Shown here one piece after another: positions 16,735-31,577 of a stretch of DNA of 34,630 nt. Source of the DNA: Erythrobacteraceae bacterium (lineage in GTDB: Bacteria; Pseudomonadota; Alphaproteobacteria; Sphingomonadales; Sphingomonadaceae); contig JAIYAL010000204.1 of assembly GCA_027489095.1 (NCBI GenBank), positions 1 to 34,630 of the forward strand, read 5' to 3'. Below the pieces are notes generated by a model that saw only the letters and a list, made by a program, of their open reading frames with translations, had not been told where the DNA came from and did no database searches. Position numbers and translations under genes: made by a program. Each line of letters begins with the position of its first letter. Within the stretch, counting starts at the first letter, position 1.

Positions 16735-16966
16735 TCACTGACGCGTGCAGAGACCGGCAAAAGCGCGGTATCTGTCGGAGAGGCGGCGCGATTAGCAGCG
16801 CCTTTAAGACCCTGCAAGCGCAAATTTGTGGCTTTGGGGCTTGATCGGGCGGAGCAGAGCCGCCAGCACAAGCGGGCGCTTCACATATGCGCAGGCCATC
16901 CCACATTGGGGCCGGGCCGGCGCGAGAGGCGCAAGAGCCAAAGCAGGAGCAGATATCTTGGCCAGC

Positions 16967-17902
16967 ATGGGACTGAGCATCGACGAACAGAAGGCCGTGG
17001 ACCGCTTCCGCACAGCGGTGGTCGAACCTTCGCAGGGCAAGCTCGTGATCCTCGACTTCTGGGCCGAGTGGTGCGGGCCGTGCAAGGCGCTCACCCCGGT
17101 GCTTGAAAAGGTCGCGGCCGATTATGCCGACAAGGGCGTGGTGCTCGCCAAGCTCAATGTCGACGAGGAGCAATTCATCGCCGCGCAGTTTCAGGTGCGA
17201 TCGATCCCGACGGTCTATGCTATGTTCCAGGGCCAGCCCGTCGCCGATCTGACCAGCGCCCGCAGCGAATCGCAGCTGAAGGCGATCCTCGACCAGCTGC
17301 TCGCGCAGCTTCCGATCGAGGCCGGGGCGGCTGGCGGCCAGCCGGGCGCGCCGCAGGGCCCTTCGCCGGAGGAGCTCGCGCAATTCGTGAAGATTGGAGA
17401 AGAGGCGCTCGCCGCCTCCGATCCGCAGCGCGCTGCCAGCATCTTTGCGCAGATCACGGAATTCGCGCCCGAAAACGCCCCGGCTCATGCGGGCCTTGTG
17501 CGCGCACTGGTGCAGCTCGGCGAGATCGAGCAGGCAGCGCAGGTGATGGAAGTGATCGAAAGCGATCCGCGCCTTGCGACCGATCCCGCGATCGCCCCGG
17601 CGCGCAGCGCTCTGGAGCTGGCGGGCACCCGCGTCGATGACGGCGAGCTTGCCGCCTTGCGCGCCGCCGCCGAGGCCGCGCCAGCCGACATGGACGCCCA
17701 GTTCGCCTTTGCCGAGGCCGCCTTCGCCGCTGGCCAGCGCGATGCCGCCGCCGAAACGCTGCTCGCCATGATCGCCGCCGACCGCGAATGGAACGAGGGC
17801 GCCGCGCGGGCCAGGCTGCTCAAGATCTTTGAGGCGACCGGGCTTGAGGACGAATGGGTGGTCGGCGTCCGCCGCCGCCTGTCGCGCGTATTGTTCGGAT
17901 GA
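16967..17902 (+). CDS. thioredoxin-TPR protein, CnoX/YbbN-like co-chaperone
   Basis: Thioredoxin domain LVILDFWAEWCGPCKALTPVLEKVA followed by a TPR-like alanine-rich helical region. Confidence 0.88.
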   Translation: MGLSIDEQKAVDRFRTAVVEPSQGKLVILDFWAEWCGPCKALTPVLEKVAADYADKGVVLAKLNVDEEQFIAAQFQVRSIPTVYAMFQGQPVADLTSARSESQLKAILDQLLAQLPIEAGAAGGQPGAPQGPSPEELAQFVKIGEEALAASDPQRAASIFAQITEFAPENAPAHAGLVRALVQLGEIEQAAQVMEVIESDPRLATDPAIAPARSALELAGTRVDDGELAALRAAAEAAPADMDAQFAFAEAAFAAGQRDAAAETLLAMIAADREWNEGAARARLLKIFEATGLEDEWVVGVRRRLSRVLFG

Positions 17903-18525
17903 GCCAGAAAAGTGTGACCCGGCGTCTCTCCATCTTCCCGCTGACCGGTGCGGTGCTGTTTCCCGGCATGCAGCTGCCGCTCCACATCTTCGAGCCGCGC
18001 TACCGTGCGCTGGTTGGCGACGCGCTGATCCGTGACCGCCAGATCGCGATGATCCAGCCGCAACGGCCAACCGATGGTGCGCCGCTCTACCGGGTTGGCT
18101 GCGTCGGGAAGATCGGCGAAGTCCAGGCGATGGATGACGGGCGCTACAACCTCATCCTCGAAGGCACCGCGCGCTTCCGGCTGATCCGCGAGCTCGACGT
18201 GACCACCGCCTTCCGCCAGATCGAGGCCGAGATCTATGGCGAGGATGAGGATGAAACCCTGTCCCACGCCCAGCGCGGCGGGTTCGAGCGCGAGGCGCGC
18301 GTCTTCGCGGATGCGCAGGGCTACAGCGTCGATTGGGATTCGGTCGGGCGGCTCGATGACCGCTCGCTGGTCAACGGCGTCTCGCAAATCGCGCCCTTCG
18401 ATCCGGCCAGCAAGCAGGCGCTGCTGGAGGCTGACACGCTCACCGACCGCTGCGAATTGCTGGTCCAGCTCATGCAGTTCTATGGCCGCCACGACGGCGG
18501 CGAGGAAATCATCACGCTGCAATAG
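17899..18525 (+). CDS. LON peptidase substrate-binding (Lon-N) domain protein
   Basis: LSIFPLTGAVLFPGMQLPLHIFEPRYRALVGDAL; ATGA overlap with the thioredoxin gene. Confidence 0.9.
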   Translation: MSQKSVTRRLSIFPLTGAVLFPGMQLPLHIFEPRYRALVGDALIRDRQIAMIQPQRPTDGAPLYRVGCVGKIGEVQAMDDGRYNLILEGTARFRLIRELDVTTAFRQIEAEIYGEDEDETLSHAQRGGFEREARVFADAQGYSVDWDSVGRLDDRSLVNGVSQIAPFDPASKQALLEADTLTDRCELLVQLMQFYGRHDGGEEIITLQ

Positions 18526-20800: not shown

Positions 20801-21027
20801 ATGTTCTCAGGATCCCTCTCACAGGAACAGACGATATCAATGATCAGGCGCCAGCACGGGGATATTGTCTCGGCTTGCGGCTGGTCACGCTGTCATTTGC
20901 CAAAAGGGAGCAAACCTCACTAATATAAGTTGCTTTCGCACGCCGTATTTAGCGCTGAACCTATTGGGACGGCAGAAAGCCGTTCGTCGCACCGTCTGCC
21001 CTGACCCCGTGCGCCCGGGATTGGCAG

Positions 21028-21191
21028 TGACCGGAATGGAAGACCACGTCGCGGCTTACGGGGAATGCATGCCGCACGGCGTGTGCCTTAATGTGGAAAC
21101 CTCGCTGCTGCTGCTGCGGGCCGGTTGGCACGGCACCGAAAGCACCGAGGCAATCGTGGTCGCTTCAGGCAAGCGGTTTTGCAGGCCTTGA
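21028..21191 (+). pseudogene. possible remnant of a membrane sensor N-terminus
   Basis: Within ORF 20865..21191: AAYGECMPHGVCLNVETSLLLLRAG resembles the (M/L)PHGxCxxWxxxLLxLH.xSD start of some membrane sensor kinases/cyclases, then loses similarity. Confidence 0.25.
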
Positions 21192-21266
21192 TTCCAAGGG
21201 TAGACCCTTTGATCCTTCCCGATTATACCTTGTAAGGTCTCGAAGTGAGCTGCAATTGAGCATCTG

Positions 21267-22667
21267 ATGACCAACCAGTCGCAGCGCAACCTTCGTCTCG
21301 ATTTTCCTGCTCTGCTGTTGGCGGGGATGATCGGGGCGGTGCTGCTGGCGGCGTTGGCGGTGCTGCTGGTTCGGGTTGTTGAGGACCGTGACATCGTCAG
21401 CCTGATGCTGATCGCCGGTTGGGTTGCTGTGATCGCACTGGCCATATCGCCCCGAACACCGCCCGCCCAGACCGTGGCTGTTGCCACGATCATTGCGGCA
21501 TCTTTCGCCATGCGATTTTACGCGATCAACTTTGTCCACGGCGTTGCGCTGGGCGCTGACCCAATGAATTACACCAATATTGCCCACGCGATGCTCGCTG
21601 GGGAGGGCATGACCGTCGATGACTGGCGCTATGGACAGGATTTGCGGGCCTATTTCCCGCCCTTTTTCCCGTTTGTACTCACGGGTTGGTGGTTTTTATT
21701 CGGCGACTCCGCACTATCGACGTTGGCGTTCAATACGCTGATCGATCTGGCGAGCGCGTGGCTCCTGTTTGATATCGTGCGCAGGCAGGCAAACGAGAAG
21801 GCCGGCATGATCGCCGCGCTGCTATTGTTTGCTTACCCACCTTTTGCGCTCTCTGCTCCGATCCCGCAAAAAGAAGCACTCACGATCCTGCTCGTCGTCC
21901 TGTTGCTAAGGGTGGCGCTGATATGGCTGGCTGACAGAAGCGGGCGACTATGGCGCCATGCCTTGCCGCTGGGTGCGTTGTGGGCGCTGCTTGCCTTGAC
22001 TCAGGCGTCATTGGTGCTTGCCCCGCTTGCGGCCGCTTTGGTGCTGGCTGCTCATCGCGGCTTTCGGCCGGTGCTGCGGCTCGGCCTTGCGGCGGCTCCG
22101 GCGTTTTTGGTGATTATGGCGCCGTGGTGGGTGCGCAACTGGATGCTCTTTGAAGCATTTGTGCCCTTCACCACGGCGTCGGGCTTTATGCGCAACGTCG
22201 CGCTTGGCCAATATGCCAACCCGATCCCGCCCGATATTTTCAAGCTGCCCGAGCCTGTCCGTTCAACGATCATGGCAAAAGCCACGAATGCCAGGATCTT
22301 GCAGGTGCCGTTTGGATTTCTGGGCGAGACGGTGCATGCGCTGGCGGTGAGTTTTGCCTTCGAAGAGGCGACGATCGCACGGTTCCGGCACACCACGCCG
22401 CCAATTTCGTTGGCCGATCGAGCGGTGTGGACGGCGCCGCTGCAGTTTGCCTGGGTCACCTTGCTCGGCGGGGCGCTGGCCTGCGTTGTGTCCGAAATCC
22501 GACGAGGGGCATCGTCGCTTGCAACGCACATCACCCTTGCGCTGTTTATCGCGGCGCTTGCTGTTGGGATGTGGTTCGAATTTGGCGAGCGTCATCGCTA
22601 TCTTCTCACTCCATTGTTTTTCATGCTCTCTGCTGGCTGGTGCAGTCGCCGGTTAAGGCGATTTTAG
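21267..22667 (+). CDS. GT-C fold membrane glycosyltransferase (GT39/ArnT-like)
   Basis: 466 aa multi-TM; GADPMNYTNIAHAMLAGEGMTVDDWRYG...YFPPFFPFVLTGWWFLFGDS...PIPQKEALTILLVVLLLR typical of lipid-linked sugar-using GT-C enzymes. Confidence 0.82.
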   Translation: MTNQSQRNLRLDFPALLLAGMIGAVLLAALAVLLVRVVEDRDIVSLMLIAGWVAVIALAISPRTPPAQTVAVATIIAASFAMRFYAINFVHGVALGADPMNYTNIAHAMLAGEGMTVDDWRYGQDLRAYFPPFFPFVLTGWWFLFGDSALSTLAFNTLIDLASAWLLFDIVRRQANEKAGMIAALLLFAYPPFALSAPIPQKEALTILLVVLLLRVALIWLADRSGRLWRHALPLGALWALLALTQASLVLAPLAAALVLAAHRGFRPVLRLGLAAAPAFLVIMAPWWVRNWMLFEAFVPFTTASGFMRNVALGQYANPIPPDIFKLPEPVRSTIMAKATNARILQVPFGFLGETVHALAVSFAFEEATIARFRHTTPPISLADRAVWTAPLQFAWVTLLGGALACVVSEIRRGASSLATHITLALFIAALAVGMWFEFGERHRYLLTPLFFMLSAGWCSRRLRRF

Positions 22668-22691
22668 CGCTTTTCGTCTAGACGACAGGCT

Positions 22692-23051
22692 ATGCCAACC
22701 TGGGTTCTCATGCTGATTTTCTTGAGCGTGGCGATGTCCGCTGCAGCGCAGGCATTTCTCAAGCATGGCGTTGGTACAGTGGCGATAGCGAGCCCCGCGG
22801 CAACGTTGTCAGCGATGCTCATGACGCCAAGCGTTATCATCGGGCTCAGCCTTTACGCGGCTGGTGCCGTCGTCTGGCTATTCGTTTTGCAGCGCACACC
22901 GCTTTCTCTGGCGTATCCTTTTGTCGCCTTGGGTTTTGTGGCCACCGCATTGATCGGTGCAACCGTGTTTGGAGAGACCCTGTCTATCATCCGGATGACC
23001 GGTGTAGGCTTGATCATCCTGGGCTGCGTTCTCGTAGCGCAATCGGCTTGA
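22692..23051 (+). CDS. EamA/SMR-like small transporter (ArnE-like putative flippase)
   Basis: 119 aa, 4 TM; LSVAMSAAAQAFLKHG...VVWLFVLQRTPLSLAYPFVALGFVATALIGATVFGE. Confidence 0.85.
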   Translation: MPTWVLMLIFLSVAMSAAAQAFLKHGVGTVAIASPAATLSAMLMTPSVIIGLSLYAAGAVVWLFVLQRTPLSLAYPFVALGFVATALIGATVFGETLSIIRMTGVGLIILGCVLVAQSA

Positions 23052-23054
23052 TCC

Positions 23055-24509
23055 ATGTTGCTCTTCCGATCAGTCGCGGCCGTTGCCGATCCTGTTCCGC
23101 TCGTTGTCGATCTGGATGGCACACTGACGCCAGCTGACGTTACCATCGAGTCTTTGCTGCGTGTAATTCGCAGTAACTTCATGGGAATTTTTGCGGTGAT
23201 AGGCTGGCTGTTGCGCGGCCGTTCGGTAACAAAGGCTCTTGCTGCCCGCCTCGCGCCACCGGATGCTACGGCGCTGCCGCTGAACCCTGGTGTGGTTGCG
23301 CTCATTCAGGCCGCGCGCGCCGATGGGCGGCAAATCATCCTTGCGACCGCAAGTCATCAACGCATTGCCTCCCGGATTGCCAAGGCTACGGGGCTGTTCG
23401 ATATCGCCATCGGTTCGCTAAGGCGTCGGCATGTCAAAGGGACCGGTAAGCTGACCGCCCTTCGCACCATCATTGGCCCTGGCCCGTTCGACTATATCGG
23501 TGACAGCCCGGCAGATGTGCCCCTGTGGCGTGCAGCGCGGACAGCCTATAGCTGCCGTTACCGTCCGTCTGGGTTGGCAGTCGTCCCGGTCGGTGATGTC
23601 GTTCGCCGTAATGCGCGGGCCGTGATCCGCGCATTGCGCCCGCATCAATGGGCAAAAAACATCCTGGTATTCGTGCCGGTCGCGACCGCGGGCTTGCTGC
23701 TGAATGGCGAAGCAATGCTCCATGCGCTGCTTGCCGCCGTTCTGTTCTCGCTGGTGGCGTCGGGAATATATCAGATCAACGATCTGCTCGATATCGATGC
23801 CGATCGGGCGCACGCGAAAAAGCGCAATCGCCCCATCGCGGCGGGCAGCTTGCCCGTCGTGCACGCCCTGCTGCTTGCTGCGCTTCTGATCACGCTTGCC
23901 TTTGCCGGGGCGCTGGCCACGCTAAGCCCGAGATTTGCGGGCGTCCTGCTGCTCTATCTCATCCTCACAACGGCCTACTCGATCCGCCTCAAGGCTGTGG
24001 TGACACTCGACGTCATTACGCTTGGGTGTCTCTATACGCTTCGGATCGCGGCCGGTGCGGTCGCCGCAAAAGTTGTCGTCAGCAGTTGGCTCTTGCTGTT
24101 TTCGATCTTTTTCTTCCTGAGCTTGGGCTATTTGAAGCGGTTTACCGAACTGCGCGACGCTCATGATCCCAAGCGGTTGCTAGACGGGCGTGGTTACATA
24201 GGGGGTGATCTTCCGGTCGTGGCGATGGCGGGGATTGCCGCTGGCATGGTGTCGATTCTGGTGATGGCGCTGTTCATTACTGATCAGAAAGCGACGGGAG
24301 ATTATGCGTCACCCTTGGCGCTGTGGGGGATTTTCTTGTGCCTCCTCTATTGGATCAACCGCGTGTGGATCATGGCCTATCGTGGCCAGATTGATTGCGA
24401 TCCGGTTGCGTTTGCAGTCCGAGACGGGCGCAGCATTGCGGTGGCGGTTCTGGCTGGAACGATCATGATTGTGGCCCGGACTGTCACCATGCCTGGATTT
24501 ACGCTGTAG
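23055..24509 (+). CDS. HAD-family hydrolase fused to UbiA-family prenyltransferase (DPPR synthase-like)
   Basis: HAD motif LVVDLDGTLTPADVTIESLL and GDSPADVPLW; UbiA segment LRPHQWAKNILVFVPV...YQINDLLDIDADRAHAKKRNRPIAAGSL. Confidence 0.92.
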   Translation: MLLFRSVAAVADPVPLVVDLDGTLTPADVTIESLLRVIRSNFMGIFAVIGWLLRGRSVTKALAARLAPPDATALPLNPGVVALIQAARADGRQIILATASHQRIASRIAKATGLFDIAIGSLRRRHVKGTGKLTALRTIIGPGPFDYIGDSPADVPLWRAARTAYSCRYRPSGLAVVPVGDVVRRNARAVIRALRPHQWAKNILVFVPVATAGLLLNGEAMLHALLAAVLFSLVASGIYQINDLLDIDADRAHAKKRNRPIAAGSLPVVHALLLAALLITLAFAGALATLSPRFAGVLLLYLILTTAYSIRLKAVVTLDVITLGCLYTLRIAAGAVAAKVVVSSWLLLFSIFFFLSLGYLKRFTELRDAHDPKRLLDGRGYIGGDLPVVAMAGIAAGMVSILVMALFITDQKATGDYASPLALWGIFLCLLYWINRVWIMAYRGQIDCDPVAFAVRDGRSIAVAVLAGTIMIVARTVTMPGFTL

Positions 24510-24589
24510 ACGCACCGGCGCTGACGGGGGACATGGGCAGGCGCGAACGCGCATGAGCCACGGCGTCGGAACCTTCGGGGATTTTGGGG

Positions 24590-24630
24590 GGCTGTCCAGA
24601 CGCTATGGAGCTGTCGCGGTAGCGGGAATC
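24590..24630. other. degenerate attachment-site-like copy of the tRNA-Gly(UCC) 3' end and flank
   Basis: gggctgtccaga-cgctatgg...GGTAGCGGGAATC (24618-24630) versus gggttgtctagaccgctatgg...GGTAGCGGGAATC (31511-31523, within tRNA-Gly). Confidence 0.45.
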
Positions 24631-25283
24631 TGAAATTCCAGATAACCGCCTAAAAGGGAGCAAGTTTTCAGAAAGTGTCTTTGAAGATACCCCCTAAAAT
24701 ACCCCCAAACTTGCTCTCTGGCACAAGAGCGTCGCGAGTGGAGTCGACTTTCAGACCTTGCACACTTTCCAAACTGGAATGGCGGAATTCTGCGGGTCCT
24801 CCCTAGGCGCTTTCGTCGGAATGAGCGCAGCTTCGCGCCCCAGGATCTGCCATTCGCAATCGTCTTGCGCACACCCTGAAGCGTTCGTCCCACTCGACGA
24901 AATGGCATGAAACTATTTCGTTGTGGTGGCGGGAAAGGCCGAATTCATCGGGGTGGGCAGGCACAGCACTACAGCCGTTGAAATTCCCATGAGATCGATT
25001 GCCGACTTGGTCTGTTGTTCGGATCGAACGCGCGGTCGAGAGCAACCAGCCTAGCCTATTTGAACAATATCCGTGGTCCGCAACAGTAGCTAATCGGATC
25101 GACCCAACGGAGCTGCTGAAGTAGTGGGTTGAATATGCTCGGAGAATTCAGGATTGTGAATTGGTACAGCGAAATCGAACGTGAGAAGCGGTCGTACCAA
25201 CCCGCCATCCCGGCAAGCAAGGAGCTATGGCTCCAGAGCCTTGGGGCGGGCGGCCTAGCACGATTCAATGGGGGCACGCCGTC

Positions 25284-26207
25284 GTGACTATTCGCAAAAT
25301 CTGCGTCCTTGGTGCACCCGCCGATCAGGGGCAGCCGCTGGTAGCCGAGCTGCTGGCACACGGATTTGAAGTTACCGCAGGGGTCCGGCGTGCCAATGCC
25401 ATGGCGGTTACCCCGTTCCCCGATCTGCCAACGGTGTTTGCCGACATCACCGATGCCGATGCGATGGCGGAGGCTTTCTCTGGGCAGGATGCCGCAGCGT
25501 TCCATCTGCCGTTCGAATTCGACCGCGCGAAGGCTGCGCATTTCGGCTGCGAGATTGCGGAGGGAGCGCGCCGTGCGGGGCTGAAGAAGATCGTCTTCAA
25601 CACCGCCTGCTATGTCGCGAGTCACGATCTTGATCTTTCGGCGCATGATGGCCGGCGCGATATTGAACAGGCGCTGGAAGAGACCGGCATCCCTTGCGTG
25701 TTTATCGAGCCGACCGTGTTCATGGATAACCAGTACCGGCTCTGGAACCGTCCCTTGATCATGCGCGAAGGGATTTTCGCCTATCCGGCCAAGCCCGACC
25801 TGCTGATCAACTGGGTGTGTCTTGAGGATGTCGCCCAGGCTATGCGCCGCGCGCTCCAGACCGATGCTGCCGATGGCCTTCACGTGCCGCTCGGCGGGCC
25901 GGAGGCGTTGTCGGGAGACCAAGTGGCGGCAAACCTGTCCGAGGCTATCGGCCGCGACGTACGCTTCGAAAGCCTTGCACCCGAGGAGTTCGCGGCCCGT
26001 ATGAGCGCAATGGTGACCGGTTCCCGGGCGGTGACACCGCTGAGTATCTATGATGGCATGGCGAAGTTCTACGCGTTCTACAACTCTCAGTCCGTCTCGC
26101 CCTTGCTGGTGGACCCGAAGGCCGCATGCGATCTGCTCGGTATGGAGCCGACGCGGCATCTCGACTGGGCCAAATCAAAGGACTGGAGTGCAGGCTTATC
26201 AGGATAA
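25284..26207 (+). CDS. NmrA-like NAD(P)-binding protein
   Basis: ORF 25227..26207; GTG start at 25284 gives MTIRKICVLGAPADQGQPLVAELLAHGFEVTAGVRR...GLKKIVFNTACYV...GIPCVFIEPTVFMDNQYRLW. Confidence 0.85.
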   Translation: MTIRKICVLGAPADQGQPLVAELLAHGFEVTAGVRRANAMAVTPFPDLPTVFADITDADAMAEAFSGQDAAAFHLPFEFDRAKAAHFGCEIAEGARRAGLKKIVFNTACYVASHDLDLSAHDGRRDIEQALEETGIPCVFIEPTVFMDNQYRLWNRPLIMREGIFAYPAKPDLLINWVCLEDVAQAMRRALQTDAADGLHVPLGGPEALSGDQVAANLSEAIGRDVRFESLAPEEFAARMSAMVTGSRAVTPLSIYDGMAKFYAFYNSQSVSPLLVDPKAACDLLGMEPTRHLDWAKSKDWSAGLSG

Positions 26208-26301
26208 CGCCGCCAGCTTGCGCACTGTGCCTTTCAAGATGGTCTGCCGCAATCACGCGCTCCGATTGCCGATCACCCCGTCGCGTTGTAGCGCCTAAAG
26301 C

Positions 26302-26907
26302 ATGGCCAAAATAACGAAGCCGCGCGCCAAAGCCAGGCTGCTCAAGGCTGGAACAAAGGAGTTCGCCGCGCATGGTTATCGCGGCGCATCACTGCGCGAT
26401 ATTGCCAACCTGGCCGACACCAATGTCGCCGCCATTAAGTATCACTTTGGTTCAAAAGAGATATTTTGGAAAGAGGTGGTCTCGCACCTCTACCAGTCGC
26501 TGGCCGATACGATCCTTGATAATGACGGCCGCAATGACGCCCCCGATACGCGCGAACTGATCCGCGCTTCGACCCGGGACTACATTCTGTTTTCGGCAAA
26601 GAACCCGGAACTCTACCGGATAACCGTCCTTGAAATGATTGAGGGCGGTGAACGGATGGAATGGCTGGCGCGCTACCATTTGCGCGAATTCATGGAACGG
26701 ACGATGGCCTGGACCTCAATTGCCCAGGAAAACGGCGTGTTCCCGCGGGACGTCCCGCCATTCAATCTGGTCTACATCATGATGGGCGCGATCCAGACCA
26801 TCTTCATGATGGCCCCGCAGATCGAGCGCAGCTTCGGCGTCGACGTTTTTGCGGAAAAACAGATCGACAGTCACGTCGAAAGCATCATGCGCCTGTTCGA
26901 TATTTGA
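26302..26907 (+). CDS. TetR/AcrR family transcriptional regulator
   Basis: LLKAGTKEFAAHGYRGASLRDIANLADTNVAAIKYHFGSKEIFWKEV HTH followed by an all-helical C-terminus. Confidence 0.95.
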   Translation: MAKITKPRAKARLLKAGTKEFAAHGYRGASLRDIANLADTNVAAIKYHFGSKEIFWKEVVSHLYQSLADTILDNDGRNDAPDTRELIRASTRDYILFSAKNPELYRITVLEMIEGGERMEWLARYHLREFMERTMAWTSIAQENGVFPRDVPPFNLVYIMMGAIQTIFMMAPQIERSFGVDVFAEKQIDSHVESIMRLFDI

Positions 26908-27228
26908 ACTTAAAATCAGATGTTTGTGCCAATAATCCGCCGCCCGATCCATTTTTAAACGATCGTATCAATTTTGCGAGTGTCGCTTGCAGCGATCCCG
27001 GTTCAGTTTCGCTGATGATACGGCGCCCATGCAGGTGCCGTGCACAAGAGGCTGAAGGCATGGTGCACTTGCGGTGCAATCGAACACGGCACGCGGCATA
27101 TCGCGGCACGGTTCCAATGCGCCCTCTCTCCCGCACAACATCACGCCTGTCCTGCAAGCCTGCCGGCCCGCAACTTGGCCGGTCGCAGCGGGATCATTTG
27201 CGTCGATGACCAACAGGGGAGAAAGCCG

Positions 27229-29712
27229 ATGGCTAAGACTACCGGACACAAATCGCGTTTCCTGACAAAGGCCTCTGCCTGGGGCCTTTGTGCAGTGGCA
27301 TTCTCGTTCGCGCCAGCGCTTGCCGCGCAGGATCAGGCCGATGAGCCATCGGCCGACAAGGCGGGTGCGCGCGGCAACGAGATTGTGGTCACAGCGCGCA
27401 GCCAGCAGGAAACCTTGCTCGAAGCTCCGGTTGCCGCAGCGGTCATCAGCGCGGCGACCCTCGAAGCCGCCCGCATCGACGAGGCCGCGGACATCATGGG
27501 CCGCGTGCCCACATTGAATGTGCAAATCGGTGGTTCGGGGGCGAGCGCACAGATATCGCTGCGCGGGGTAGGCTCCAGCAATATCTCCAACGCGTTCGAT
27601 TCCGCCGTAGCGCTCAATTTCGACGGCGTGCTGGTCAGCACCCAGCGCCTGCTCCAGTCGGCCTTCTTCGATGTCGCCCAGATCGAGGTGCTCAAGGGGC
27701 CACAATCGCTTTATTTTGGCAAGGCCGCCTCGGCAGGCGTGCTGTCGCTGCGCTCGGCTGAGCCAACTGCCACCTGGCAGGGCGGCGGCAAGACAAGCTA
27801 CGAGATTGAGGAGGACGGCTATACTGCCGGTGGGTTTGTGTCGGGGCCACTGACCGATACACTCGGCATTCGCGTGGCCGCCGAATATCAGGATATTGCC
27901 AAATATGTTGAGCTTCAGAACAACGTCCCGGCACGTGACCGCGACAAGGGGTTCAACAACTTCATCGGTCGGGTGACGCTGGACTGGAAACCGACGTCTG
28001 ATTTCTCGGCCAACCTCAAGCTCGATTACAACCGCCAGCGCAGCCAGACCTTGCTGCAATTCACCGACATCTTCTGTGGCGGTGATGGGCGTGCCGATCC
28101 GTCTGTGCTTGCTGTGTTCGGCGTGTCCTTTGCGCCGACGCATGATTGCAACATCAGCGACAGCCGCTTCCCGACGCCTGACGGCAATGCGGCGATCAAT
28201 GTCGTGCCGACCGGCACTGTCGGCGCAGACCGCGCAGACATTTCACAGGCGTTCAACGACACCGATATCTTCTTCGGCCGCCTGACGCTGGATGCGCGGC
28301 TGAGCGATGACCTGAAGGTGACGTCTATCACCGGCTATGTCGATATGGACAATGAATACAACGACTCCTTCAATTCCACCGGGCGCCTGCCAAACGGCGC
28401 CGCCGCAGGGCTGGTGGCGCCGTTCAAGAACACGCTGGAACAGTTTACGCAGGAACTGCGCCTGATCAGCGAATTCGACGGTCCGTTCAATTTCATGCTC
28501 GGCGCCTTCTATGAAGACCGTACCATGGGCCTCAGCACCTCGCAGAACGCCTTCAATCCGTCGCTGGTGCTGGGACCCGATCCCCGCACCGGTTTCACCT
28601 TCGACTGGTTCGCCGATCGCCCGATCCAGTCCGAAGCGATTTCGCTGTTCGGCAGCGCGTCCATCGATTTCAGCGATGCCTGGCAGCTATCGGGCGGGCT
28701 GCGCTGGACGGACGAGAAGAAGTCGACCGTCATTGCCTTCCCCTACGTCCACAGCTTCATCACCACCGCATTCGGCGCGGTGGCTTCGGGCTTCATCACT
28801 GATCCGGTCGTGTTCAAAGACAGCAATATCTCGCCCGAACTGGTGCTGCGATATACTCCGAATGACGACACCAACATCTATGCGGCGTTCAAGTCCGGCT
28901 TCAAATCCGGCGGGGTCGATAACAACCTGTTACCGACCGGCACGGTTGTCCCGGGGCTGAACAGCGCCGATCCCGTGGTGGCAGAGGCAGCAGCTGACGC
29001 CTTGCGGTTTGACTCGGAAACCTCGCTCGGCGGGGAAATCGGGTTCAAGTCCCAGTTCGCCAACCGCACGGTCACACTCAACGCCGTGGCCTATTATTAC
29101 GTGTTCGACAATCTTCAGGTCCAGAACTTTGATCCTGCGATCTTCAATTTCGACACCACCAACGCTGGCGAGTTGACCACGCAGGGCATCGAAGTCGATT
29201 TTGCCTGGGCAACACCGATGGACGGGCTGAACCTTTCGGGCGGCTTTGCGCTGCTGGATGCCGAGTTCACCGACACCTTCTTCGTCCCGGCAACGGGCGA
29301 TGATCTGGAAGGTGTCCGCCCGGCCCGCGCGCCGACTTTCTCGGGTAATCTCGCGGTTGACTGGAAAACGCCGCTAACCTCGAGCCTCGATCTGGGCGTC
29401 AATGGCAACCTTGCCTACACCTCGTCCTATATCACGGCCAACAGCACGCGCGGCACGTTCCAGGACTCGGTGCGCAACGCCAATGGCGCGCTCAACAAGC
29501 TGGTGCAGGACGGGTTCTTTACGATCGACGGAACGGTCTCGATCGGCGCGCCTGATCAGGGGTGGACCCTTTCGCTCATCGGTCGCAACTTGACCGACAA
29601 GCAGTGGATCAACACGTCCGGGCCGGCGCCGTTCGTGGGTGCTGGCGACGATCAGGTCGTCACACTCAACCGCGGAAGGCAATTGTTCATCGAAGTCGGC
29701 TTCAAGTTCTAG
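27229..29712 (+). CDS. TonB-dependent receptor
   Basis: Signal peptide MAKTTGHKSRFLTKASAWGLCAVAFSFAPALAAQ; TonB-box-like NEIVVTARSQQE; plug VEVLKGPQ-type IEVLKGPQSLYFGKAASAGVLSLRS; C-terminal RGRQLFIEVGFKF. Confidence 0.95.
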   Translation: MAKTTGHKSRFLTKASAWGLCAVAFSFAPALAAQDQADEPSADKAGARGNEIVVTARSQQETLLEAPVAAAVISAATLEAARIDEAADIMGRVPTLNVQIGGSGASAQISLRGVGSSNISNAFDSAVALNFDGVLVSTQRLLQSAFFDVAQIEVLKGPQSLYFGKAASAGVLSLRSAEPTATWQGGGKTSYEIEEDGYTAGGFVSGPLTDTLGIRVAAEYQDIAKYVELQNNVPARDRDKGFNNFIGRVTLDWKPTSDFSANLKLDYNRQRSQTLLQFTDIFCGGDGRADPSVLAVFGVSFAPTHDCNISDSRFPTPDGNAAINVVPTGTVGADRADISQAFNDTDIFFGRLTLDARLSDDLKVTSITGYVDMDNEYNDSFNSTGRLPNGAAAGLVAPFKNTLEQFTQELRLISEFDGPFNFMLGAFYEDRTMGLSTSQNAFNPSLVLGPDPRTGFTFDWFADRPIQSEAISLFGSASIDFSDAWQLSGGLRWTDEKKSTVIAFPYVHSFITTAFGAVASGFITDPVVFKDSNISPELVLRYTPNDDTNIYAAFKSGFKSGGVDNNLLPTGTVVPGLNSADPVVAEAAADALRFDSETSLGGEIGFKSQFANRTVTLNAVAYYYVFDNLQVQNFDPAIFNFDTTNAGELTTQGIEVDFAWATPMDGLNLSGGFALLDAEFTDTFFVPATGDDLEGVRPARAPTFSGNLAVDWKTPLTSSLDLGVNGNLAYTSSYITANSTRGTFQDSVRNANGALNKLVQDGFFTIDGTVSIGAPDQGWTLSLIGRNLTDKQWINTSGPAPFVGAGDDQVVTLNRGRQLFIEVGFKF

Positions 29713-29805
29713 TCTGGTCTCTCCGGCTGGCCACTGACGGGCGGGCGCAATACATCAAGGGTGCCCGCCCGACTTTTCCTTGCGGCCAACTGCTGCGCTA
29801 GGACG

Positions 29806-30768
29806 ATGCACACAATGCCTCAACAACCTCCGGCTGAATCCGAAACTGCGGGCAGCGCCGTTCCCAGCTCGGCCCATCCGTCGCCGGTTGACCCGGCGCT
29901 GGCACAGCTGGACAAGCGGATCGGCAGTCTGGTCGTCAATCGCTTTACCTATCGCATTTTGCGCATCCTCGGGCGGTTAGCGCGGCCAAGGTTCGAACCC
30001 GATGGTGTCACGCTCGAGAATGACGGCCACTCCGCCATCATTCATCCACTCGAGCGCATCGGCAGCGGTGCGCTCATGCTGTTTCATGGGGGCGGGTTTG
30101 TCCTGGGGGAGCCTGCCGACCTTTTTCCGAAGGCCTCGATGTTTGCCCGGATGCTGGGCGTGCCGGTGATTTGCCCTGCTTATCGGCTGGCACCCCAATC
30201 GCCCTATCCTGCCGCAAGCGATGATGCCCTTGCCGCGTGGCACGCAACCATTGCCAAAGCGTCCGACATGGGCATTGATCCGACGAGGATTGTCGTCGGA
30301 GGCTACAGCGCCGGCGCCGGGCTGGCTGCGAGTCTGGTTCACCGGCTGCGCGATCTGGGAGGCAGCCATCCAGCCGCGCAATTGCTGATCTATCCGATGC
30401 TCGATGATCGAACCGCTATGCTGGAAGCGCTCGATACGCCGCGCCATCGGGTGTGGAGCAATCGCAACAACCGCTTTGCTTGGAAGGCCTATCTGGGATC
30501 GCATGAAAGGGCCGAAATCCTGCCTTATGCAGTAGCGGCCCGGCGCACCAACCTATCGCAGCTCCCTCCTGCGTGGCTCGGAGTGGGCACCTGCGATCTC
30601 TTCCTCGACGAGGTCAGGAATTACCGCGCCCGCCTTGACGCAGCCGGGGTCGAAGTGAGTTATGAAGAAGTGGCAGGTGCGATCCACGGGTTCGATATGG
30701 ATGACAATCCTCTTGGGCACCGTTTCACTCAGGCACAGCTTGAGTTTGTTCGTCGGTTCGTGTGCTGA
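29806..30768 (+). CDS. alpha/beta-hydrolase (HSL/acetyl-esterase type)
   Basis: HGGG oxyanion motif (LFHGGGFVLGEP), nucleophile elbow GYSAG, His region GAIHGFDM. Start uncertain (29761 or 29806). Confidence 0.92.
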   Translation: MHTMPQQPPAESETAGSAVPSSAHPSPVDPALAQLDKRIGSLVVNRFTYRILRILGRLARPRFEPDGVTLENDGHSAIIHPLERIGSGALMLFHGGGFVLGEPADLFPKASMFARMLGVPVICPAYRLAPQSPYPAASDDALAAWHATIAKASDMGIDPTRIVVGGYSAGAGLAASLVHRLRDLGGSHPAAQLLIYPMLDDRTAMLEALDTPRHRVWSNRNNRFAWKAYLGSHERAEILPYAVAARRTNLSQLPPAWLGVGTCDLFLDEVRNYRARLDAAGVEVSYEEVAGAIHGFDMDDNPLGHRFTQAQLEFVRRFVC

Positions 30769-31224
30769 TCTTTACTGTGAGAATGCAAGTGCCGGGCCAT
30801 CGCATGGATTAATGCACTCGCCAAATGAGAAGGAGAGTTAGGCGGGCTAGGATTGCGTTGCAGGTCCGCATTCGACTTGAGCCAGCTGAAATCATGAAAT
30901 TCTCTTCGGCGACTCCCAGAAAACGAACACGCGGCTTCAACCAGTTGTTGGTCAGAACCTGCGGCTCAACAACCATCCCAGTTGCTGTCGGAATGCCGCG
31001 AGGGTTGGATGAACGCCCGTTGTCAGCTCCTAGCAAAACCCGCCGTTGGGCAAGCCGCCTTCGAACGACCGCAAAGTCCCAGAATTCGCCATCCTAGACG
31101 ATTGGAATCTTCGGCCGCTAGTGGGCGGTAGGGGGGACAACAGTGATGGTGGTCCCGAGTTTTCCGTGTCTGAGGTTGCATACTGAATTTGCGGGGCTTC
31201 CCCTTGGCGGCTGGCACCTGCGCG

Positions 31225-31383
31225 GATACCCTTTTCATCGCTTAGCTTGGTGGCCTTTGGGTCGGGCTTTGCCTGCCGGATCGCTACATCGGTGAGTGCC
31301 ATTTGCGAGCGTGGCTTTGCTGTCCTGATACCCCCATGGGCGGGGGTATTGCATCGGCTCGCCACTGATACCCCCTCAAACAT
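31225..31383 (-). pseudogene. tyrosine-type integrase, N-terminal remnant
   Basis: Minus-strand MALTDVAIRQAKPDPKATKLSDEKGI (31302-31225) matches the DUF4102 arm-binding N-terminus of phage/island integrases; similarity stops after about 26 aa. Confidence 0.8.
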
Positions 31384-31503
31384 ACCCCCATCGCATTGCG
31401 GCAGGGAGCGAAAGCGAGCGAACCGGTGTGAACCGATTGCTAGGAAATATCAGGCTTTCTGGTGGGTTGTCTAGACCGCTATGGGCGCCCGTGGACGCGG
31501 AAG

Positions 31504-31577
<74 letters not shown>

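Follow-up and report, generated by a model that had tools for sequence, protein, structure and literature searches.

A probable periplasmic ribofuranosylation operon of the Citrobacter youngae O1 type in a tRNA-Gly-bounded variable region of an Erythrobacteraceae genome

The window, that is, the whole 34,630-nucleotide stretch of Erythrobacteraceae DNA analyzed here (contig JAIYAL010000204.1 of assembly GCA_027489095.1), carries three adjacent genes for a GT-C membrane glycosyltransferase, a small four-helix membrane protein and a HAD-UbiA fusion, which lie within a variable region that ends at a tRNA gene. The features discussed below are as follows.

21026..21125, + strand: sensor kinase remnant (the start of a second kinase) at the left edge of the variable region; 84% over 100 bp to L139:8446-8544
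21267..22667, + strand: GT-C membrane glycosyltransferase, 466 aa (PMT_2 5e-9, AlphaFold2 fold); proposed periplasmic pentofuranosyltransferase
22692..23051, + strand: EmrE/ArnE/ArnF-like small protein with four transmembrane helices, 119 aa; proposed polyprenyl-P-pentofuranose flippase
23055..24509, + strand: HAD-UbiA fusion, 484 aa (HAD at about 13-170, UbiA phosphoribosyltransferase at about 187-475)
24597..24640, no strand assigned: scar-like sequence after the operon with a 13-bp exact tRNA-Gly copy, a possible old attachment site
31504..31577, − strand: tRNA-Gly(tcc), called by ARAGORN, right boundary of the variable region; similarity to L139 resumes exactly at 31504

The initial annotation had described a tight, co-directional three-gene arrangement at 21267-24509, and the open reading frames match it exactly: all three are on the + strand, with 24 bp between the GT-C stop and the start of the small protein and 3 bp between the small protein and the fusion. 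A promoter and terminator scan gave counts not above those of shuffled sequences. Profile searches recovered the anticipated families for all three proteins, namely PMT_2 over the Pfam cut-off for the GT-C (5e-9), TMEM234/EamA/SMR for the 119-aa protein (9e-7 to 4e-4, every one just under cut-off), and UbiA (3e-20) plus HAD (1e-9) for the fusion, both over cut-off. The fusion, present as a single copy in the source genome, also matches NCBIfam PRK08238.1/NF006088 over its full length (6.6e-154; 513 bits, cut-off 351); the name of this model is simply ‘UbiA family prenyltransferase’, and the fusion thus belongs to a protein family that is known but does not bear a name for its function.

That name, together with membership of the UbiA superfamily, would fit an ordinary aromatic or lipid prenyltransferase, with the HAD domain acting on another phosphate and the neighbors being incidental; we consider this most improbable, since the residues, the fold and the conserved GT-C and flippase neighbors (see below) all argue against it. 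The closest PDB sequence match of the fusion is 8j8j, the mycobacterial DPPRS Rv3806c (6e-30), and 14 of the 15 Rv3806c residues checked in the alignment are identical (R22, K28, Y70, N73, D77, D81, K87, R90, Y138, K143, Y157, K191, R192, and E195), the sole substitution being Q135 to a Thr that is nearly invariant in the fusion’s relatives. In Rv3806c, most of those positions take part in binding PRPP, Mg or decaprenyl phosphate (PMC10994848), and the roles of the NDxxDxxxD and R/E positions in activity are documented elsewhere as well (PMC11127046). The fusion accordingly combines an N242/D246/D250-type motif with the PRPP-binding K/R cluster expected of a UbiA-type polyprenyl phosphoribose synthase, and its second motif is KRxxE (K361-R362-xx-E365) rather than Asp-rich, as it is in Rv3806c and in Citrobacter ORF15. 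The three other UbiA proteins of the source genome, whose sequences resemble those of heme O synthase, 4-hydroxybenzoate prenyltransferase, and bacteriochlorophyll synthase, served as a control: they retain N73 and, for the most part, the Asp positions, whereas K28, Y70, K87, K191, R192, and E195 are lacking. The AlphaFold2 model of the fusion (mean pLDDT 87.5) agrees with these assignments, the top PDB matches in Foldseek being 8j8j (DPPRS with bound PRPP; TMt 0.80) and 8j8k, followed by archaeal UbiA enzymes, while the HAD part matches SerB-type phosphatases. The HAD motifs are intact as well (D19xD21, T98, K128/K132, and GD150xxAD154). Neither PRPP-incompatible UbiA residues nor a loss of HAD catalytic residues was therefore found, and the proposed fusion of a HAD phosphatase to a DPPR-synthase-like UbiA domain held up; a classical UbiA prenyltransferase was rejected on residues and fold, the second Asp-rich motif for prenyl diphosphate being absent.

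The small protein finds its best profile matches in ArnF and ArnE (NCBIfam, 2e-11 and 4e-11, 43-44 bits, under the cut-offs), although the drug exporters QacG and EbrB are also matched, and an alignment of its homologs shows a conserved core. By homology below curated cut-offs and by position, it is an EmrE/ArnE-like protein with four transmembrane helices adjoining the fusion, and from these profile matches and its neighborhood we propose that it flips polyprenyl-P-pentofuranose. In the GT-C, residues D98, Y102, E203, and R442 are invariant across 17 aligned sequences (the window protein and 16 relatives). The DxxxY motif formed by D98 and Y102 sits in the first conserved extracytoplasmic loop, its side of the membrane being deduced from the helix count, and places an acidic residue there. 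The AlphaFold2 model of the protein is of moderate confidence (pLDDT 72.9, pTM 0.77), and its top structural matches, which include AglB, STT3, ArnT, ALG12, Pmt4, PglB, and AftA, bear out the predicted GT-C fold.

The same pathway has already been described for Citrobacter youngae O1 (Kelly et al., 2024; PMC11127046). In that system, the HAD-UbiA protein ORF15 converts PRPP to polyprenyl-P-ribofuranose, as shown in vitro with farnesyl-P, and the HAD mutant D18A leaves the 5-phosphate mostly in place; ORF14 is a four-helix EmrE/ArnE-like protein that is likewise a predicted flippase, and the GT-C ORF12, founder of family GT136, adds alpha-ribofuranose (PMC11127046). The window trio shares with ORF12/14/15 the N-terminal HAD and C-terminal UbiA arrangement, the small EmrE/ArnE-like protein, the GT-C and the lack of an epimerase, as well as the NDxxDxxxD motif, the R/E pair in loop IV and the HAD nucleophile. 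In a motif comparison drawn from the paper and not from an alignment, the spacing of D98-xxx-Y102 equals that of the essential D31 and the important Y35 of ORF12. The two systems differ in that the trio stands outside any O-antigen cluster, in the order GT-C, flippase, fusion, and within a variable region that adjoins tRNA-Gly in an alphaproteobacterium; moreover, at 466 aa, the window GT-C is shorter than ORF12, whose CBM occupies residues 503-652, and so has no comparable C-terminal CBM.

We infer the enzyme activities, the flipping, the sugar identity and the linkage from the genes, and very probably the trio is a periplasmic pentofuranosylation system with three components, like that of Citrobacter youngae O1, and delivers ribofuranose to an extracytoplasmic acceptor. 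The UbiA half would transfer phosphoribose from PRPP onto polyprenyl phosphate, the fused HAD domain would remove the 5-phosphate to yield polyprenyl-P-ribofuranose, the EmrE/ArnE-like protein would flip this lipid, and the GT-C would pass the ribofuranose, probably in alpha linkage, to a glycan, glycolipid or protein. The support obtained here comprises gene order, families, catalytic-residue conservation, folds, neighborhood and the lack of a DprE1 match. It sustains the four-step scheme of the initial annotation, whose steps were demonstrated or argued for in Citrobacter youngae O1 (PMC11127046). The trio is therefore a new example of the three-component system published in 2024 (Kelly et al.) and not a new kind of pathway.

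The neighborhood was surveyed at two levels. Among 301 genomes of the order, a relative of the fusion (E<=1e-30) was present in 20, some as fragments, one split over two contigs and one without the HAD half. Among GTDB representatives, 355 relatives were found, and the best 80 were kept for locus analysis; a small flippase lies within 4 kb of the fusion at 40 of these best 80 loci and DprE1 beside it at 16, while none has both, and 31 of the 40 flippase loci also have a GT-C that fits the same broad profile. Four relatives from the window’s own order have DprE1-DprE2 adjoining the fusion, and the DprE1-type loci of that order carry GtrA in place of the SMR-type protein. The neighborhood is kept across Sphingomonadales and beyond, and the scheme was not refuted on this point either. 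In a tree of 86 fusions, one branch (SH-aLRT 93) divides the flippase type from the DprE1 type, with a single change from one to the other; their mutual exclusivity therefore reflects one ancient event, and its Fisher p is not to be taken at face value. The window fusion stands well inside the flippase clade, beside a Porphyrobacter fusion (L049; 56% identity).

The GT-C follows a different pattern. Its only close relatives among the best 80 of 355 loci are the GT-Cs of L069 and L089 (48% identity), whose fusions lie elsewhere in the flippase clade, and it gives no significant match to the GT-C of L049, even though the L049 fusion is the sister of the window fusion. It has two more N-terminal helices than the commoner GT-C of these loci, and yet it is recovered at 8e-24 by a profile from which the window type was left out, so the two types are related. 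These sequence comparisons suggest that the GT-C is exchanged around a stable donor module, with the fusion and the small flippase staying together while the GT-C changes. The variation in GT-C type, like the presence of drug exporters among SMR-type proteins, could also be taken to mean that the fusion makes polyprenyl-P-ribose while the small protein exports a drug or metabolite, or the GT-C draws on another donor, and that the three do not form one pathway. We regard this as very unlikely, given that ArnF and ArnE rather than drug exporters are the best profiles of the small protein, and that the pairing of fusion and small protein is kept over many genera and in several gene orders.

As to the identity of the sugar, in the Citrobacter study DprE1/E2 homologs accompany arabinofuranose, the SDR protein ORF13 makes the product xylofuranose in serotype O2, and the absence of an epimerase gives ribofuranose (PMC11127046). 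The source genome (91% complete, 223 contigs) yielded no ALO-domain protein, and its best match to a DprE1 profile scored 48.7 bits, against 386-430 bits for four DprE1 genes in relatives; an arabinofuranose subtype via DprE1 was rejected on these two results. The operon contains no SDR epimerase with TGxxGxxG and YxxxK, and the SDR-like gene closest to it, NmrA (25227-26207), is separated from it by 717 bp and has a TetR neighbor of its own; read as an ORF13-like epimerase, it was rejected because its sequence has neither motif, and its spacing also speaks against it. The reported absence of a DprE1/DprE2-like epimerase from the window thus stands for the operon and, as regards DprE1, extends to the genome assembly, which favors ribofuranose. 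The same pathway with an epimerase gene at another site in the genome (DprE1/DprE2 or an ORF13-like SDR), and hence with arabinofuranose or xylofuranose as the sugar, seems unlikely: epimerases do diversify the sugar in the system of Kelly et al. (PMC11127046), DprE1-DprE2 adjoins the fusion in the four same-order relatives, and such a gene could be missing from the 91%-complete genome, but DprE1 occurs at 0 of the 40 SMR-type loci (best 80 of 355), a clade that has the window well inside it. From the gene content, ribofuranose is most likely the sugar transferred.

Three further systems bear comparison. The mycobacterial set (Rv3806c/Rv3807c/DprE1-DprE2/Rv3789/Emb-Aft) shares the PRPP and polyprenyl-P chemistry, the active site and the extracytoplasmic GT-C, but its phosphatase is separate and unrelated, its flippase is Rv3789, and its product is epimerized to arabinofuranose by way of the DprE1 not found in the source genome. 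The ArnE/ArnF and ArnT pathway of lipid A Ara4N modification shares an SMR-type flippase and an ArnT-like GT-C fold. Its sugar donor, however, comes from another set of enzymes rather than from PRPP through a UbiA enzyme. In the D-arabinofuranose glycosylation of Pseudomonas pilin, a PPPRS homolog likewise feeds an extracytoplasmic glycosyltransferase, but the sugar is arabinofuranose, where ribofuranose is predicted here, and the PPPRS of P. aeruginosa has no HAD domain (PMC11127046).

The trio was also said to be less GC-rich than its flanks, which holds clearly on the left (0.594 against 0.659) but less so on the right, where the flank is itself low (0.615); the stretch of low GC is part of a longer variable region, which has its end at the tRNA-Gly at 31504, and is not confined to the operon. 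The genus-mate G332 (L139) aligns with the window over 12.7-20.7 kb and again over everything from 31504 onward, and a variable region of about 10.4 kb (window 21026-31577) is absent from it. The second sensor kinase is intact in L139 (8447-9595), and between its remnant in the window and 31504 there is no further similarity; this tentatively favors replacement in the source lineage over loss in L139, both edges having been compared in a single genus-mate. Besides the trio, the region contains NmrA, TetR, a TonB-dependent receptor and an alpha/beta hydrolase; no integrase was identified, and a phage origin was rejected, as there was just one weak partial match in phages. A 13-bp piece of the tRNA-Gly, GGTAGCGGGAATC, is found at both 24618 and 31511, and although it is a weak match by itself (BLAST E 0.015), it hints faintly at stepwise insertion.

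Relative to the Citrobacter system, the locus adds a new lineage, residue-level support, the split between flippase and DprE1 types, the apparent GT-C exchange and a tRNA-bounded setting. Since HAD-UbiA fusions are annotated just as ‘UbiA family prenyltransferase’, the glycosylation systems of many genomes go by a name that says little about their function, and the neighborhood permits a guess at ribofuranose versus arabinofuranose modification in environmental alphaproteobacteria. More tentatively, we envisage a sphingomonad-centered branch in which a donor module of HAD-UbiA and SMR-type flippase works with interchangeable GT-Cs; the window GT-C, which has two additional helices at its N-terminus, might then represent an uncharacterized transferase family that modifies a surface molecule from within the tRNA-Gly-side variable region, possibly altering cell-surface recognition, for example by phages.

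Several minor observations emerged from the survey. A thioredoxin-TPR and LON-domain gene pair adjoins the flippase/GT-C/fusion trio both in the window (16826-18525) and in L033 (11549-13082), a distant sphingomonad MAG that differs in gene order and GT-C type, which may be a coincidence or point to a common insertion site. Fourteen intact HAD-UbiA fusions that form a mostly myxococcal clade (L071, L077, L078, L081, L082, L085, L090, L092, L098, L106, L107, L110, L115, and L125) showed, on contigs some of which are short, no flippase and no DprE1 in their vicinity, and the same applies to some fusions outside this clade. Many DprE1-type fusions (L079, L083, L084, L095, L099, L101, L105, L108, L113, L116, and L122), unlike the flippase-type ones, have Asn in place of Asp at HAD motif IV (D150 in the window). 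In two further DprE1-type fusions (L043:8184-9566 and L044:8223-9629), the HAD catalytic residues are lost, with GxD or DxS for DxD and other motifs missing too, whereas all residues checked in the UbiA half are retained; in these loci, the 5-phosphate must either be removed by a different phosphatase or remain in place.
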